From the NCBI GenBank assembly GCA_019448385.1, contig JAGTXO010000004.1, forward strand, positions 124,001 through 188,000: a stretch of 64,000 nucleotides of DNA, in the 5' to 3' direction. The notes beneath the pieces are model-generated. The model was not told the origin of the DNA. It saw only the letters and a list, made by a program, of their open reading frames with translations, and did not search any database. This DNA comes from Diacronema lutheri. Taxonomy: Eukaryota; Haptophyta; Pavlovophyceae; Pavlovales; Pavlovaceae. The translations under genes were made by a program, and so were the position numbers. This document shows positions 44,445-54,849 of this stretch, piece after piece (the stretch's first letter is position 1; each line of letters begins with the position of its first letter).

Positions 44445-47024
44445 TCAGTCGCGCACCGCCGCGATGCGCTGGTGCGCGGGCAGCAAGTGCTCGTACGGCC
44501 TGCGCTGCGCGCGCTCGGGCTCGACGCGCAGCAGCGGCGTGTCGCGCGCAGCCTCGCCCCCCTCGTCGTCGTCACTGGCAGCGGCTCCACACTGACCGCG
44601 CGCGCGCAGCCGCGCAACGCCGGCGAAGACGGCGGCGAGGACGAGGGCGAACGCGGAGCTCACGCCGAGCAGCATGCCGCCGAGCACAACCGCGTCCTCC
44701 TGCAGGTCGTACACGCCGTCTCGCCCGCCGCGCGGGCCGTCGAGCGCGTCCGCGGCGTCGACGCGCTGTGCGCCGACCGCCGAGCGCGCGGTCGCGTGCG
44801 CGCCCTGCGCGTCCGCGGCGGGCGCGGTTGAAGTCGCAACGCCTGAAGTAGCAACGCCTGACTGGCCGACTGTGATGGGCGGGTGGGGCGTGAGCTGCAC
44901 GCCACCAGCCGCGGGCGCGCCGGTCGGCGAATTGGCGTCCGGCTTGTATGACCACGGCAACGAGTTGATCTCGAAGAGGATTGCACCGAGGGTCCAGCCC
45001 GCCTTGAGCTTGTTGCCCGCCTTGGTCTCAATCACGTCCGTCGCCTGCAGCGGCCTGTCCATGTGCACACCGAAGCCATTGTTCAGCATGGCGACGGTGA
45101 GCGCCGCCTTGAAGCAGATCTCGCGCGCGCTCTTCTCATCGGACGACTCCTCCGCCGCCTCCAGCATCGCCTCCTGCAGCTCGTGGCTCACAGCGCGCAG
45201 CCCGTGGCCACTCTGTGCGTCGCCGACCGCATCGAGCCCCGCGGCCGCGGCCGCGCGCGCGTCCGCGCCCTCGTCGGGGCCGGCTGCGTCGTCCACGTCG
45301 TCCGGCAGATCAAAGTCCGGCACGAATCCGTCGTCCGACATGGAGTAATCGGACGCGCTCGCGTGCTTGTGCACAAACTTGACGAGGTGGTGCATGTGCA
45401 GCCCGCACGCGGCCGTCGCGACGCGCGTCAGGTTCGTCAGGCTCGCGCGCTGCGGCACGCCGAGCGACTGGAAGGTCTCGACAAGCGACGAGCCGAGCAA
45501 GTGGAAGTTGCCGAAGACGTCGGTCGCGTCGGGCAGGAGGGGGAGGTACACGTCGGCCATCGCGCACTGCCCGTGATGCGCCCTGCGACGACCCGCCAAC
45601 GCGCGCGCGCCGAGGTCGCGTGCGGCACGCGCGTGAGCGCGCGCGGCTCGGCGTACGCTCTGCTGCCGCGCGCCTCTCGCGCAAACCACAACCAACCCCC
45701 CCCCCCCCCCCCCCCCTGCGGCGCCTCACCAGTCACACCACTCGTTGAAGCGGCGGCGGGTCGCGCCCTCCACGTAGCCGGCGAAGGGGAACTTGTCGTT
45801 GCCCTGCAGCCCGAGCGAGCTGCCCTTGGCGACGAGCTGCTCGTAGCACCGCTCGAAGCGGGGCACGCCCGGCGCGTCGGGTGCGGGCACGAGAATGGCG
45901 GCGCGGAGCGGGCCAAACGTGGATGGCGGCACGACGCCCGATTGGTTCGTCACGGTGGGCGGCAGCGGCATTGGCGGCATGCCGACGGGCACGCACGGGT
46001 CGTGCAGCACGCACGGCATGGAGAAGTCGGCGTCCATGTCGAAGCAGCGCTGTTCCATCGCGAGCTCGTTCCAGACGCGCTGCATTGCAGAATAGGCGCC
46101 GTAATGCAAAAAGGAGCGCGCATAGATGTTCCAGTGCTTCAGGCCACCCACCTGCACCTTGAAGAGGTTCTCGATAATGTCGTGGCCCGGGTTAATGAAC
46201 GACAACTGCGACGACGCGCCGCCCATCTCGACGATCCCCACCGCCCGCGTCGGCCGCGCTGTGCCCGAGCCTGTGCCGTCTTCGAGCAAGTGGCCTGAAG
46301 CGGGAGGGGGGGGCGGGGGGGGGGGGGGAGGGCAGGGGCGGCACGCGCACGGCTGAGCGCGGCGCGGCGCAGCGCGGCGCGGCGCAGCGCGCGTACCGAG
46401 GGCAAAGTTGATGCCCGTCCATGCGTAACCCGCCTCCTCCTCTCCCGAGATGACGCGCGCCGCGTCCGCCTCGACAAAGTGGAACGGGTTCTTGTCCGAG
46501 AGGAGCAGCGCGCGCACCTCCTCGATGATGGCGCGGCGCGGCGTGTGCGCGAGGACGCGCATGCCGGCGGTCGCCTTCACCCAGATGGGGAAGCGGTGCC
46601 AGTCCTTCTGGTAGTGCCGGAGCAGCACCTTTGCGTGCTCGATAAGCGGGAGCAGCGTCTCGGCAGCGGCCTTTGGGTCGTCGGCCAGCGAGGAGATGCC
46701 GGGGGCGCGCCGCTTGGTCCACAGCTCCGAGGTGAGCGGGTGAGTGATTGGTGGCGGCAGCGTCGAGAAGACGCGCTTGGGCCACTCGTACACGTGCAGC
46801 CGCGAGCCCGTCGAGCCCGCGTCGATCAGCAGCCCAAACTCGGCGTCGTTGCTCACGGGCTGCGGGCCAAAGGCGACGAGCGGGTGCTCGCCCGGCTCGG
46901 CAGACTTGTCAACGCGCGGCTTGGGCGACGGAGGCGAGGCGGGCGGCGCTGATGCCGCCCGTCTCTTCTGCGCCGCCGCGCCGAGGAGCACGAGCAGCAG
47001 CGCAGAGACCTGCACGCGGCCCAT
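44445..47024 (-). CDS. GDA1/CD39 nucleoside di-/triphosphatase (apyrase), membrane-bound
   Basis: Exons 47024-46397, 46294-45730 and 45582-44445 give 776 residues. Apyrase conserved regions are all present in order: ACR1 LLIDAGSTGSRLHVYEW, ACR2 IWVKATAGMRVLA, ACR3 ISGEEEAGYAWTGINFALG, ACR4 VGIVEMGGASSQLSF, and ACR5-like KLKAGWTLGAILFEINSLPW. Introns 46295-46396 (102 bp, stop-free, C-rich before TTCAG) and 45583-45729 (147 bp, containing a C21/G21 run) were placed where the family sequence is interrupted; splicing gives NFALG|HLLEDG and NEWCDW|AHHGQCAMADVY. There is a signal peptide (VSALLLVLLGAAA) and a C-terminal transmembrane helix (GGMLLGVSSAFALVLAAVF). It likely hydrolyses NDPs in the Golgi lumen or extracellular nucleotides. 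A short SGVATSGVATS repeat lies before the C-terminal helix. Confidence 0.85.
45696..45716. repeat. Poly-C run inside apyrase intron
   Basis: A C21 run on the plus strand (G21 in the transcript), 13 nt after the donor of the second apyrase intron. Confidence 0.9.
46302..46329. repeat. G-rich run (C-rich in the transcript) before the apyrase intron acceptor
   Basis: A nearly pure G tract, C-rich in the transcript, located immediately upstream of the TTCAG acceptor of the first apyrase intron, in the position of the polypyrimidine tract. Confidence 0.9.
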
Positions 47025-47193
47025 CGCCCTTTCGCGTTTAAAAAGCTGCGAACCCCTCGTACTTACTACTTAGTCAATTATAATATTGCCGGCCCGGTCG
47101 GCGCTTTGAAAAAAGGCGGAGATCTCGTCCCCCGCGAGCGACGCGACCGCAAAGCGGCGCGCGCGGGCGGGTCGCGTGGGAAAACTAGGTGTA

Positions 47194-50100
47194 CTACCTC
47201 TCCTGCTGCGGCGCAATGTACACAAAGACGACGTGCTGGTACGCGGTCGCGACGCTGATGATGACGATGAGCAGCGGGAAGCCGTACCGCAAAAAGTGCG
47301 TCCCACGGATCGGGTTGGACGGCGAGTAGCGCTCCGACACGCCGACGCACGCCAAGTTTGCGCTCGAGCCCTTCAGCGAGCCGATACCGCCGACGCATGC
47401 GCCGACGCTGAGCGCCCAGACGAGCGGGAGCACATGTACGCTCAGCGCCTCCTCCTGCAGCAGCCCGTGCAGCACGTACCCGATCGCCATCGCGAACGGC
47501 AGCGACTCGAGGAAGGCGGAGCCGAGCGCGGACAGCCACAGCACGAGCACGAGCGCAACGCCCTGAGACGCGCGCGCGGCGTGGCGGGCGCGCGACGCGA
47601 CGGGCACGGGGTGGTGTGGCGGCCTTGACGTCGGCGCGCGCGCGGTGTGGTAGGAGGGGGAAGTGGGGGCGGCAGTGGGAGGGGGACGTGGGGGCGGCAG
47701 TGGGAGGGGGAAGTGGGGGCGGCAGTGGGAGGGGGAAGTGGGGGCGGCGGTGGGAGGGGGACGTGGGGGCGGCAGTGGGAGGGGGAAGTGGGGGCGGCAG
47801 TGGGAGGGGGACGTGGGGGCGGCAGTGGGAGGGGGACGTGGGGGCGGCAGTGGGAGGGGGACGTGGGGGCGGCAGTGGGAGGGGGAAGTGGGGGCGGCAG
47901 TGGGAGGGGGAAGTGGGGGCGGCAGTGGGAGGGGGAAGTGGGGGCGGCAGTGGGAGGGGGACGTGGGGGCGGCAGTGGGAGGGGGGACGTGGGGGCGGCA
48001 GTGGGAGGGGGGACGTGGGGGCGGCAGTGGGAGGGGGAAGTGGGGGCGGCAGTGGGAGGGGGACGTGGGGGCGGCAGTGGGAGGGGGACGTGGGGGCGGC
48101 AGTGGGAGGGGGAAGTGGGGGCGGCAGTGGGAGGGGGAAGTGGGGGCGGCAGTGGGAGGGGGAAGTGGGGGCGGCAGTGGGAGGGGAAAGTGGGGGCGGC
48201 AGTGGGAGGGGGAAGTGGGGGCGGCAGTGGGAGGGGGACGTGGGGGCGGCAGTGGGAGGGGGACGTGGGGGCGGCAGTGGGAGGGGGAAGTGGGGGCGGC
48301 AGTGGGAGGGGGACGTGGGGGCGGCAGTGGGAGGGGGACGTGGGGGCGGCAGTGGGAGGGGGAAGTGGGGGCGGCAGTGGGAGGGGGACGTGGGGGCGGC
48401 AGTGGGAGGGGGACGTGGGGGCGGCGGTGGGAGGGGGAAGTGGGGGCGGCAGTGGGAGGGGGACGTGGGGGCGGCAGTGGGAGGGGGAAGTGGGGGCGGC
48501 AGTGGGAGGGGGACGTGGGGGCGGCAGTGGGAGGGGGAAGTGGGGGCGGCAGTGGGAGGGGGACGTGGGGGCGGCAGTGGGAGGGGGGAAGTGGGGGCGG
48601 CAGTGGGAGGGGGACGTGGGGGCGGCAGTGGGAGGGGGAAGTGGGGGCGGCCCCCAAAACCCAGTCAGCCGCTTGCGATCGCGACGCGCGTGCACGCACC
48701 AGCCTCGACTCCTCGGGCAGCGAGTTGATAAAGGCGGCAAAGCCAAGGCCCGTCGCGCGGATCAGCCCTGCGATCCGCGCCCCGCATCGACCGAGCGATG
48801 GCGCGTGAGCGCCGGCTGCGCGCCGCCGCGGCCCGCCGCGCGCGCGCACGCGGCGCGCGCACGCGGCGCGCGCACGCGGCGCGCGCACGCGGCGCGCGCG
48901 TCTCTCACCGAGCTCCTCAAGCGCGCCTGTGAGCACGAAGAGGCCACAGAAGAAGAGGAGACCGTCCCACTCGACCGCTCCAATCGCGTGCCGCACGTCG
49001 TGGCGCGACGTGATGATGGCCGCGCCGAGCATGCCGAGCATGCAGAACCACGCGGGCTCATACCCGTGGGACGAGCCGAGGAGGAGGGAGAGCAGAATGG
49101 CGCCAAAGATGATGCCGAGCACAACGAGGCCGCGCTCGTCGTGAATGCGCAGCTCCGAGCGGATGCGCGCCACGTCGATCGGCACGCGCTCCGGCCCGAG
49201 GGCGTGACGCATTCGCCAAAACTGCACGGCGGTGGCGAGGGGCATCGCCACGGCCATCAGCGGGCCGTTGTACGTGAGGAAGGCGGCGAAGGGCAGGTCG
49301 AGCTTGTTGCCGATGAGCACGTTGAGCGGGTCGCCGAGCAGCGTGGTCGTGCCGCCGATCGTCGCGCTGAGGGTCTGCGTGAGGTAGAGCGGAAGCGGAT
49401 TGACGCCGAGCTGCTCGCAAAGCTTGATCGAGATCGGCCCGAGCAGCAGCACGCACGTCACGTTGTCGACGAGCAGCGAGAGAAGGCCCGACATGTTTGT
49501 GATCAGGAAGAAGAGGCGACGCACCGACCCGCCGCTGAACACGACCATGGCGCCCGTCGCCCACTCGAAGAAGCCGGTGAGCGCAAGGAGGTGCGTGTTT
49601 ACGCTCATCGCGAAGGAGAGCATGATCGTCGAGCCGTCGATGAAGCCGACGACGGTGCCGAGCGAGGGCACGGCGGAGGTGAGCGCGAGGAGCGCGAGGG
49701 CAAGGAGCGAGCAGATGAACGCCGTGTACACGCGGTGCATCATCTCGACGTGGAAGAGCGCGAACGCGAGGGCAAAGAGCGTTGCACCGAGCGGCAGGCG
49801 GTGCCTTCCCATCCGGCCCATCTGCACCGCCTGCGCGAGGAGCGGCACGGCCGCCGAGCCGTCGGCGCGCACCTCGAGGCGGAGCGGCTCGCCGCGCAGC
49901 ACGGCCGGTGCACACGGCGCCGCGTGCAGGTCGACCGTCGCCCACATCTCCGCCTGCTCGTCCGCGCGCAGCGGCAGGCGCTGCGACGCGCACAGCGCCG
50001 CGCCCGCCCACACCGCCCACTCGACGTGCGACGGAGCGCCGTCGACGGGCGCGGCGTCGGCGGGCGCGGGCAGAGTGGGCGTACGCCGTTGCACGCCGCG

Positions 50101-52625
50101 CGCCCGCCGCTCGCCGATGCGGCTCGTGCACTCGTCGCCCGCGCACGCGGCGAGCAGTTTGATGTCGACGACGTGCCGCGGCTGCTCGGCGAGCTCGAGG
50201 CGGAGCGGGCTGGCGGCGGACGGCGAGTAAAGCGGCGAGACGATCGACGTCTGCAGGCGGTACAGGCGCGTGCGCACCACGTCCTCGCGCTCGCGCGCGG
50301 GCGCCCACCAGACGAGCACGAGCGCGCAGAAGAGCGAGGCGACGAGCACGAGCAACGACGGGAGCGCGTCCGCGCGCCGCAGCTTGCGCACATGCGTCGG
50401 GCGCGCGAACTGCTTCACCTCGTACACGGACGAGTTGGCGGGCATCGTCGACACGTTCACCTCGACGATCGTCACCGCCGAGTAGTTGCCGCGCTTGCCG
50501 CCGAGCGCGGGCGAGATCCCATCCATCGAGATGGTGAATGCGTCGTACCGGTGCCGATTCAGCCATCCGCAGCATCCCCACGCGTCGTCGTCGTCGTCGC
50601 GCGCGCGCTCGCGCATCGCGTCGATGTTGTGCGCGAACGTGAGGTTGGTCTGGTCGATCGAGCCGTCGATCGTCTGCGCAGCGCGGCGCGGCGGCGCGCG
50701 GCGGCGCGCGGCGGCGCGCGGCGGCGGCGTGCGGCGACGGCAGCGGCGCGCAGCGGCGGCGGCGTGGCGGCGGCGCGCAACGCGGGGTGTGCATGAGCCG
50801 CACGCGGGGGCTCGGTGCGTGCGCCGCTGCGTAACGGCGGGTGCGCGCGGCGCGAGGCGCCGCGCCGCGCCGCGCCGCGGTGCGCGCGCACCTCGAGCAG
50901 GTCGTCCTTCGACGCGAGCACCTGTGCCTTTGAGGCGAAATCGCGGTTGGACATCATGCAGGCGATCGCGTGTCCGACATGCTGATTGTCGCGTTCCGCC
51001 TCAGGGGGCCCGAGGACGAGGAAGACGAAGCGGACGGGCGGCGGCTTGACGCCGTCCTGCTGCTCGGTGATCTGGCCCAGGTCCACCGCGCGCTTCAGCC
51101 GGACAAAGACCGCCGCCTGCTCCTCGAGGAAGGAGACCGTCCCGGCCAGCACGTCGCACGCCTCGTCCGACGCCTCGCGCAGCTCGGGCTGCGCGGCGTG
51201 CCGCTCGCGGCTCACGACGCGCGCGAGCGCGGCCGGGCCGAGCGACGAGGCGGTGGCGAGGTGCGCGCGCGCGGGCGCGGGCGCGAGCGTGACCGCCACG
51301 CTCTGCGCGCCGGCGCCGCCGCTGCCGTCGTCGGCACCATCAGCGGAGGGCACAGCGTGACCGTGCGCCGGCGCGTTCGAGCGGCCGCTGTCGGACGGCA
51401 GCGGCGCCTCGTTCGCGCCTGTGTGCGACGAGCTGAGCGAGAGCTCGCGCGCGCTCGGCAGCGCGCCCTCGCCCGCCACGACGCCATCGACCGATGCGCC
51501 CTCCTGCTTGCCCGCCGAGCCGGCGTCGTGGCGGTCGCGCGCCACGGGCTCGGCGCGCGCACGGCCGTCGACGAGCTTGCGCTTGCGCCGCTCGGTGGCG
51601 TGGTAGTGCTGGGCCTGGATCACCTGCATCGCCTCGTCGCGGTTCTCGTCCGCGAGCGCGCCCGACGCGATCATGTCGTTGACGATCGCGCTCGCGATGT
51701 AGTTCAGCGCCGCGCCGGATGAGAGCGGTCGGTCGGCGGCCGTCGGCACGTCGAGGTCGATCATGACGGTGCCGCGCGTGATGAGCTTGCGCAGGAGGAG
51801 GAAGTCGTGGAACTTGACCGTCGACAGGTGCGCGCGTCCGAACTGCATCTCGCCGTGCTTGCCCTCGGCGACGCTCTGCTCGAGCCCATCCTTCCAGTGC
51901 GCCACCTCGCGCCACTCGACCTTGTCGTCCTCGCGCACCTTGCGCAGCGTGTCCATCTCGACGAAGATGGGCTTGACCGGCTGGCCGATGTGCGCCGTCG
52001 TGCCGATGTCCGAGATCGAGATCGACGTGTGTGGCGCGCTCGGCTGCGCCGCCGCCGACGAGCGGTACGTCTTTGCGGTCTGCCACTCGAGGAAGTCGGC
52101 GTGGAACGCGTGGCCGGGGAAGAGCGTCGCGGTGCAGTCGCGGCCCGTGTGGCTCGCGCGCATGATGAGCATGGCGGGAAGCGTGTTCCCCGCCGCGGAG
52201 TGCAGCTCCATCGCGCTCTTCCGCGTCTCGACCATCTCGCCGATCCCGAAGAGCAGCCGGCAACTGTCGACCGTCCGCTCCGCGCGGAACTTTGCGTCGA
52301 GGATGCACTCGACCGGCTTGCCGATCGACACGTCGGGCCCGAGCACGCGGTAGACTTCCTTATTCATGTACGTGATCGTGGCGTCGTCGCGCGAGTAGCA
52401 GATGATCATCATCGGCGCGTCGTCCGCGGCCGCCATCATCTGCTGCAGCGCGCGCTGCCGCGCGCCGGCCGAGCCGCGCCGCTCGTCGGGCCCGCCGGCA
52501 TCCGACGAGCGGCGGCGGTGACGCGGGCTCACGCGCGTCGACTGGCTCCGCCCGCGCTCGACCGAGGGCGCAGCCGGCTCCTTCTCCGCCGGCCCGTCGG
52601 AGAGCCGGCGCGCGCGCGCCCGCAT
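47194..52625 (-). CDS. PAS-like + SLC4 (band 3) cytoplasmic domain + OCA2/CitM-type permease fusion
   Basis: Four exons (52625-50892, 50673-48909, 48767-48700, 47562-47194) give about 1311 residues. Residues 70-160 look like a PAS domain (MMIICYSRDDATITYMNKEV). Residues 236-350 match the SLC4 bicarbonate-transporter N-terminal domain: VEWREVAHWKDGLEQSVAEG, LRKLITRGTVMIDLD, IVNDMIASGAL, then AQHYHATERRKRK. At 540-578 comes its second half, VRFVFLVLGPPEAERDNQHV followed by GHAIACMMSNRDFASKAQVL. The membrane part is not SLC4: after TM1 (LPSLLVLVASLFCALVLVWW) and a large loop it is a P-protein/CitMHS permease, with LVDNVTCVLLLGPISIKLCE and IGGTTTLLGDPLNVLIGN. Junctions restore family sequence: DDLLE|TIDGSID, LEELG|LIRATGLG and ESRL|GVALVLVLWLSAL. 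Animal OCA2 controls melanosome anion flux and pH. Here the role could be pH- or bicarbonate-gated anion transport in an internal compartment (inference). Confidence 0.75.
47653..48650. repeat. 25-bp G-rich minisatellite, about 40 copies, in an intron
   Basis: The plus-strand unit is gtgggggcggcagtggga followed by gggggaa or gggggac, 25 bp. Units occur in two main versions (AAGT or ACGT at the end), with rare variants of one extra or missing G or cggcggt. Because 25 is not a multiple of 3, all frames cycle through one 75-bp/25-residue period and stay open on both strands, giving long spurious reading frames. It lies wholly inside the 1137-bp intron 47563-48699 of the permease fusion gene. Confidence 0.95.
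48841..48900. repeat. 13-bp tandem repeat near an intron donor
   Basis: Four or more copies of cggcgcgcgcacg lie within the 141-bp intron 48768-48908 of the permease fusion gene, ending just before its GTGAGA donor. Confidence 0.8.
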
Positions 52626-53862: not shown

Positions 53863-54642
53863 TCACGAGGCCTTTGCCTGGTTCTGCACCGTGATGGCCG
53901 CCTTGGTCGGCGGCTTGCTCGCCTCGAGCGCGTCGTGCGGTACGGTCACAACGAGCCGGTTGCCGTCCTCCACTTTGGCGACGATCTCGTCCGCCTTGGC
54001 AACGTTGCGCGGCAGCGCGAACGCACGGAAGAAGTCGACGGTGCCGCCCTTCGCCTTGCACGTGACGTGCAACTTGCGCCCGTCCACCTCGACGCGCGGG
54101 CTCGACGGCTCGACGCCGTGCACCTTGATGCAGTAGCCGACGTCGTCGTCGCTCACCTCGAACTCGGGCGGGCTCATGTCCGCGGCGGGGCGGAGCGAGA
54201 CCTTGAGCTGCTTGGACTTGTCCGTCCCGGTGCGCTCGCGCGGCTTCTGCGAACCATCGGGGATCGTGACGACGACGCGCGAGCCGATGTGTTCGGCGGT
54301 GATCTTGTCCGTGTTCTGTACGGCGCATGGCAGCGTGATCACGCGCGACGCGCGCGCGCAACCGTCGGCGGCCTCAGCCTTGACCGTCACGACGTTCGTC
54401 CTGTCGTCGATGGACACGTCGACGTTCTCAAAACCGCCGAGGTCGTCGAAGACGACGCGCAGCGCCTTGTTGTCGCCCGCCTCGACGCGCGCGACACTCC
54501 GCATGTCGGGAAAGTCGAGCGTGCGGCCGAGCGCGGGCAGCAGCGAGAAGGGGCTCGCCATGTCGGCGAAGGGATCGGTCCACAGCGGCGGCGCCGACGT
54601 GACGGGGAAGGCCGTGTACGGTGAGAGGAGTGATGACATCAT
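53863..54642 (-). CDS. Protein with two HSP20/alpha-crystallin-like domains
   Basis: A single exon of 259 residues from the ATG pair at 54642/54639. Two tandem beta-sandwich repeats are visible. The first contains NVDVSIDDRTNVVTVKAEAA and ends SRVVVTIPDG. The second contains YCIKVHGVEPSSPRVEVDGR, KLHVTCKAKGG and FFRAFALPRNVAKADEIVAK, ending NRLVVTVPHDALE. The FFRAFALP...A.I.A..E.G.L.VTVP pattern is the core of small heat-shock proteins ('F.R.F.LP..V....I.A....GVL.VT.P'). The first copy is more diverged (SRVITLPCAVQNTDKITAEH). The N-terminus (TDPFADMASPFSLLPALGR) resembles sHSP N-termini. It is probably a holdase chaperone; tandem-domain sHSPs occur in some plants and algae. The promoter holds a 22-bp palindrome. 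Confidence 0.7.
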   Translation of the reverse strand: MMSSLLSPYTAFPVTSAPPLWTDPFADMASPFSLLPALGRTLDFPDMRSVARVEAGDNKALRVVFDDLGGFENVDVSIDDRTNVVTVKAEAADGCARASRVITLPCAVQNTDKITAEHIGSRVVVTIPDGSQKPRERTGTDKSKQLKVSLRPAADMSPPEFEVSDDDVGYCIKVHGVEPSSPRVEVDGRKLHVTCKAKGGTVDFFRAFALPRNVAKADEIVAKVEDGNRLVVTVPHDALEASKPPTKAAITVQNQAKAS

Positions 54643-54712
54643 CGTGGACGGAGTTGGACGGGTCTGGACGGCAACTCGTGCCCTTTTTAAAAGAAGAAGA
54701 CGAGAAGGTGAC

Positions 54713-54734
54713 TGACGTCGCTTTAGCGACGTCA
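54713..54734. promoter_or_regulatory. CRE-like palindrome upstream of the double-HSP20 gene
   Basis: tgacgtcgct (54713-54722) and agcgacgtca (54725-54734) are perfect inverted copies with a TT spacer, each containing a full TGACGTC/GACGTCA core as bound by bZIP factors. It lies 71-92 bp upstream of the start codon. A TATA-like tttttaaaag and GAA-rich sequence, possibly heat-shock-element-like, lie between. Confidence 0.5.
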
Positions 54735-54849
54735 CCGCTCTCACCCGCAGTCACCGCTCCCAGTTTCCTGGCCCGGCCGCGCGCTTTTCCGCAAGCCATC
54801 CACACCCGCAGCGCCACCGCTCTCACCTCAGCGCCGCCTGGCCGGCCGC

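Follow-up and report, generated by a model that had tools for sequence, protein, structure and literature searches.

In the 64,000-nucleotide stretch of Diacronema lutheri DNA analysed here (the window), the minus strand carries a gene at 47194..52625 that encodes a product of 1311 residues and has four colinear homologues (P0001–P0004). Its coding sequence is divided among exon 1 (50892..52625, residues 1–578), exon 2 (48909..50673, residues 579–1166 plus one base), exon 3 (48700..48767, from the remainder of residue 1167 through 1189) and exon 4 (47194..47562, residues 1190–1311 and the stop codon). The introns all have GT-AG borders and measure 218 bp (intron 1, 50674..50891, phase 0), 141 bp (intron 2, 48768..48908) and 1137 bp (intron 3, 47563..48699). 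The bulk of intron 3 is a G-rich minisatellite (47653–48651), with 39.8 copies of a 25-bp unit and 96% matches. Judged from the sequence, the start codon is at 52625; since the reading frame stays open upstream to 53105, this is the likeliest start rather than a proven one. The start, the stop at 47194, the four exons with their phases and the position of intron 1 are as given in a preliminary description of the locus, and the seven motifs quoted there all occur in the translated product. The downstream neighbor on the same strand (45726–47069) matches the GDA1/CD39 nucleoside phosphatases (E 2.3e-43), and a minus-strand open reading frame at 53863–54750 has a weak HSP20 match (E 9.8e-6).

A Pfam-A scan of the product established that a single polypeptide combines an SLC4-type cytosolic domain with a CitMHS permease that follows it, as far as homology of sequence defines these domains. 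Band_3_cyto (PF07565) was found with E 1.4e-40 and 140.3 bits against a cut-off of 34.3. Its first block (51549..51968, minus strand) comprises residues 220–359 and profile positions 3–126; the second (50892..51167, minus strand) comprises residues 487–578, continues to residue 587 in exon 2 (50647–50673) and covers profile positions 189–284, the match stopping at position 284 of 294. CitMHS (PF03600) reached E 4.2e-52 and 177.7 bits against a cut-off of 31.9, and its core (47401..49761, minus strand, residues 883–1243) contains introns 2 and 3. The preliminary description had staked its reading on PF07565 and had also named PF03600; both matches were obtained, and since both scores lie far above their cut-offs, a chance resemblance of motifs is excluded. 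The HCO3_cotransp membrane domain (PF00955) is absent from the product in the same scan up to E 1. The PDB gave 16 sequence matches at E ≤ 1, of which 12 belong to SLC4 chains and four to NadC-family transporters.

The same architecture is found elsewhere. A search with residues 200–600, in which the 7997 candidates sharing most words were scored, returned 13 proteins at E ≤ 1e-3; four of them combine PF07565 with PF03600, and the other nine combine it with PF00955. The four, P0001 to P0004, are 1253–1341 residues long, have the same domain order and are colinear with the model from end to end at 66, 66, 57 and 56% identity, respectively. P0003 and P0004 come from JGI, and P0001 and P0002 are MMETSP open reading frames named 'type:complete'. 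P0001 differs from P0002 by an in-frame gap of 41 residues in the permease core and may represent an alternative transcript. As the two are otherwise identical they were counted as one lineage, so that the four homologues represent three lineages. Both Band_3_cyto and CitMHS were also detected in P0002, P0003 and P0004. A profile built from the five fusion sequences added no new member, the four proteins at E ≤ 1e-6 all being known already (7995 candidates scored). These protein searches took in the candidates sharing most words, and their negative results apply to that set.

The homologues bear directly on whether two neighboring genes have been misjoined or the assembly is chimeric. Sequence of the homologues runs unbroken through the intron 1 junction, where the preliminary description had placed a possible break between two genes: DDLLE|TIDGSID is shared with P0001–P0003 and replaced by DEVLE|TIDGSID in P0004, the sequence across the junction being DDLLETIDGSID in the three and DEVLETIDGSID in P0004. 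It is true that the case for a single gene is made with homologues from other lineages. Nevertheless, the same order recurs in four proteins of 1253–1341 residues from three lineages, two of them named as complete transcript reading frames, and the exons, consistent in phase, all lie within 5.4 kb. We therefore rejected adjacent genes and an assembly chimera, which we regard as extremely improbable.

In front of the SLC4-type domain, at about residues 69–173 (52107..52421, minus strand), lies a region whose predicted structure matches PAS structures in the PDB. All 50 PDB entries among the listed structure matches of the N-terminal half model refer to this part. No Pfam PAS model reaches its gathering score (PAS_8, 17.8 vs 21.8 bits; PAS_9, 11.9 vs 27). 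The 'PAS-like segment' of the preliminary description may thus be described more firmly as a predicted PAS fold, despite the Pfam scores below cut-off. A PAS fold usually acts as a sensor or a signal relay. Using the position of the LOV motif for comparison, we saw by eye no conserved LOV-type flavin-binding cysteine in the alignment of the fusion proteins; the cysteine nearest to that place, C107, is replaced by Thr in P0003 and by Met in P0004. Outside the PAS part, the model of the N-terminal half is poor (mean pLDDT 40.5), and the assignment of an SLC4-type fold is therefore one of sequence. Structure prediction of each half, as the preliminary description had suggested, yielded folds for the PAS and permease parts and a poor model for the remainder of the N-terminal half, and this poor prediction neither favors nor disfavors an SLC4 fold.

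The C-terminal half begins with a first transmembrane helix, TM1 (50311..50367, minus strand, residues 681–699, hydropathy 2.68), which is helical in the predicted model. Between TM1 and the core lies a predicted beta-sandwich (49819..50277, minus strand, residues 711–863). It is possibly GOLD-like, although the likeness to GOLD is weak and similar scores are reached by non-GOLD sandwiches. The permease core itself is predicted to adopt the elevator-type ArsB/DASS fold, from a model of the exon 2 part, up to residue 1166. For P0003, the best NCBIfam permease model is MamN (E 7e-40), at 137.1 bits and thus far under its cut-off of 500. Overall, the predicted arrangement is a PAS fold at the front and, behind the SLC4-type domain, TM1, the beta-sandwich and an ArsB/DASS-fold permease core. 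Two cysteines of the linker, C612 and C613, are invariant in all five fusion sequences.

The substrate motifs differ within the fusion family. The model, P0001 and P0002 have GDPLN and GSLKGSSAN, and P0003 and P0004 have GDPPN and GSIMGSSAN. Position 1028 is Leu in the former three and Pro in all 19 other rows of the alignment, and position 1253 is Lys in these three, with Met in 18 and Leu in one of the 19 other rows. The members therefore may not share a substrate; the motifs suggest that the substrate may have changed in one branch of the family. An anion, either chloride, a carboxylate or an oxyanion, is the most likely substrate.

We propose, with somewhat more confidence than doubt, that this single gene encodes a regulated secondary transporter or anion channel in which sensing by the N-terminal half sets the rate of the permease. 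The protein would be a dimer, by analogy with DASS-type permeases and with the N-domains of SLC4 proteins. Its PAS and SLC4-type domains would respond to a signal in the cytosol (pH, a metabolite or an anion) and would thereby set the rate of an elevator-type permease. The beta-sandwich would face the lumen or the outside and may aid trafficking, as has been proposed for OCA2. From the interpretation in the preliminary description, the domain order and the attachment of a bicarbonate-transporter module to a permease of another fold both stand, given the Pfam and PDB sequence matches, the predicted PAS and permease folds and four homologues in three lineages; its further suggestion, pH or inorganic-carbon sensing in an algal compartment, is plausible.

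Alternatively, the SLC4-type domain might be no sensor and serve instead as a platform for dimerisation, scaffolding or sorting, comparable to band 3 with ankyrin and protein 4.2, with the PAS fold adding dimer contacts. We consider this unlikely. The predicted PAS fold at the front is of a kind generally used for sensing or relay, and the N-terminal half shows strong conservation, with 63% identity to P0002 over residues 200–600. SLC4 N-domains are described as dimeric and as regulating transport, and NBCe1 is nearly inactive once its N-domain is removed (PMC4664831). Conversely, the AE1 N-domain has cytoskeletal partners, and AE1 transport persists after its removal (PMC4664831). A further point for a platform concerns Arg298 of NBCe1-A, which aligns with His552 of the fusion protein (codon 50970..50972, minus strand), as counted along the PDB alignment. 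All five fusion sequences have this His, P0001 and P0002 being one lineage. Arg298 and Glu91 are reported to be conserved across all SLC4 bicarbonate transporters, and the activity of NBCe1-A falls when either is mutated, while in AE1 the change matching the NBCe1-A mutation is without effect (PMC4664831). An NBCe1-like action of the domain is therefore not to be assumed, and its function may have shifted. Regulation of the permease by its N-terminal half nevertheless remains our preferred reading.

Several known systems share parts of this architecture. Both conserved blocks of Band_3_cyto, separated by a variable insert, are likewise present in the SLC4 transporters (AE1–3, NBCe1, NBCn1); the fusion protein, in contrast, lacks HCO3_cotransp, has a predicted PAS fold in front and carries His at the Arg298 place. 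OCA2 (the P protein), taken here by its published description, has a succession of TM1, beta-sandwich and CitMHS core like the one predicted here, whereas a disordered cytosolic tail of ~171 residues occupies the place of the PAS and SLC4-type domains (PMC10372470). The same source links OCA2 to a chloride conductance and describes a GOLD-like luminal domain, dimeric homologues and a predicted elevator mechanism, DASS permeases being known to operate as elevators (PMC10372470). No protein named OCA2 appeared among the matches of our N-terminal half, profile and permease searches. The ArsB/DASS transporters (VcINDY, NaCT, NaS1, Pho90) differ in their front-end domains, and the identity is 12–20% in the ArsB and DASS structure matches. 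The SPX-permeases (Pho90/Pho91 type) likewise place a cytosolic regulatory domain before a permease of the same superfamily, with SPX where the fusion has the PAS and SLC4-type domains. A paralogue with SPX in front is present on contig C82 (L021:1959-4433; CitMHS 5.4e-27, SPX 1.7e-17), so that a parallel for a regulator fronting such a permease exists in the same genome.

The origin of the SLC4-type domain was approached through the genome, of which 43,492,796 bases on 103 contigs were searched. In a PF07565 profile search, Band_3_cyto occurs at this locus only and in none of 14 control genomes, and the N-terminal half without the insert matches this locus only at E ≤ 1. HCO3_cotransp pieces were found at six sites, three of them on contig C4 and one each on C86, C37 and C89. 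The one SLC4 reading frame scanned contains HCO3_cotransp but lacks any Band_3_cyto match up to E 10. The three match sets on C4 fall within ~42 kb (C4:1353525-1395720), perhaps a local gene multiplication. In Emiliania huxleyi, an SLC4 homologue is reported as specific to the diploid stage (PMC2784329).

One account of the origin derives the domain, by capture, from a complete SLC4 gene, later lost or acquired by transfer, rather than from a stand-alone module; we judge this an evenly balanced proposition, and it is compatible with the regulatory function preferred above. With PF07565 at a single locus and the scanned SLC4 frame holding HCO3_cotransp alone, no donor is in sight. On the other hand, outside the four fusion proteins the domain always accompanies HCO3_cotransp (9 of the 13, a thin sampling from the 7997 best word-sharing candidates). 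Scans of viral and prokaryotic contigs, each with two short peptide patterns, likewise confirmed no relative among 112 pattern matches for the whole-protein alignment and 76 for the N-domain in the viral contigs, and 79 in the prokaryote genome contigs. The large N-domain is described as missing from the SLC4-like proteins found in bacteria, fungi and plants; it seems derived from a separate gene, although as of 2015 no genome then available contained an identifiable isolated homologue (PMC4664831). A more tentative view, which we regard as less likely than not, is that the SLC4 N-domain is a free-standing regulatory module that eukaryotes have combined with two or more unrelated membrane folds. 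Here it would form, with PAS, a two-sensor cassette on an OCA2/ArsB-type elevator permease, the Arg-to-His change making it a pH or metabolite sensor.

The domains themselves are known; for their combination we could not find a description. The open-licence PubMed Central literature, judged mostly by titles, yielded none for a fusion of Band_3_cyto with a CitMHS permease, consistent with the preliminary description, which knew of no protein with this order. As an SLC4-type domain here sits on an OCA2/ArsB-type permease, the SLC4 regulatory module also occurs outside the SLC4 family. The fusion family gives the N-domain such a home in an organism whose SLC4 membrane domains seem to be without it. 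It also opens the question of the domain's own role, namely, whether regulation travels with the domain when it is added to, or removed from, another permease. The predicted PAS fold, moreover, is placed on an OCA2-type permease, a class that in animals is connected with the chloride and pH of organelles (PMC10372470).

Searching with the permease part of P0002 returned 21 proteins, the query among them; four carry Band_3_cyto and 17 do not. The latter, the unfused eukaryotic relatives P0014–P0030, all have permease cores 40–49% identical, and nine of the 17 match TM1 and the loop of the model at E ≤ 0.01. The fusion proteins group as a single clade, with support 100/99, in a tree built from 22 permease rows. 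P0029, an unfused relative, has B-box zinc-finger domains, another front end seen in one member. In the genome, the permease half matches solely its own gene at E ≤ 0.01, and CitMHS is found at four other loci. At one place on contig C43 (L019:3173-5752), a CitMHS permease reading frame contains an internal TrkA_C domain (E 6e-13).
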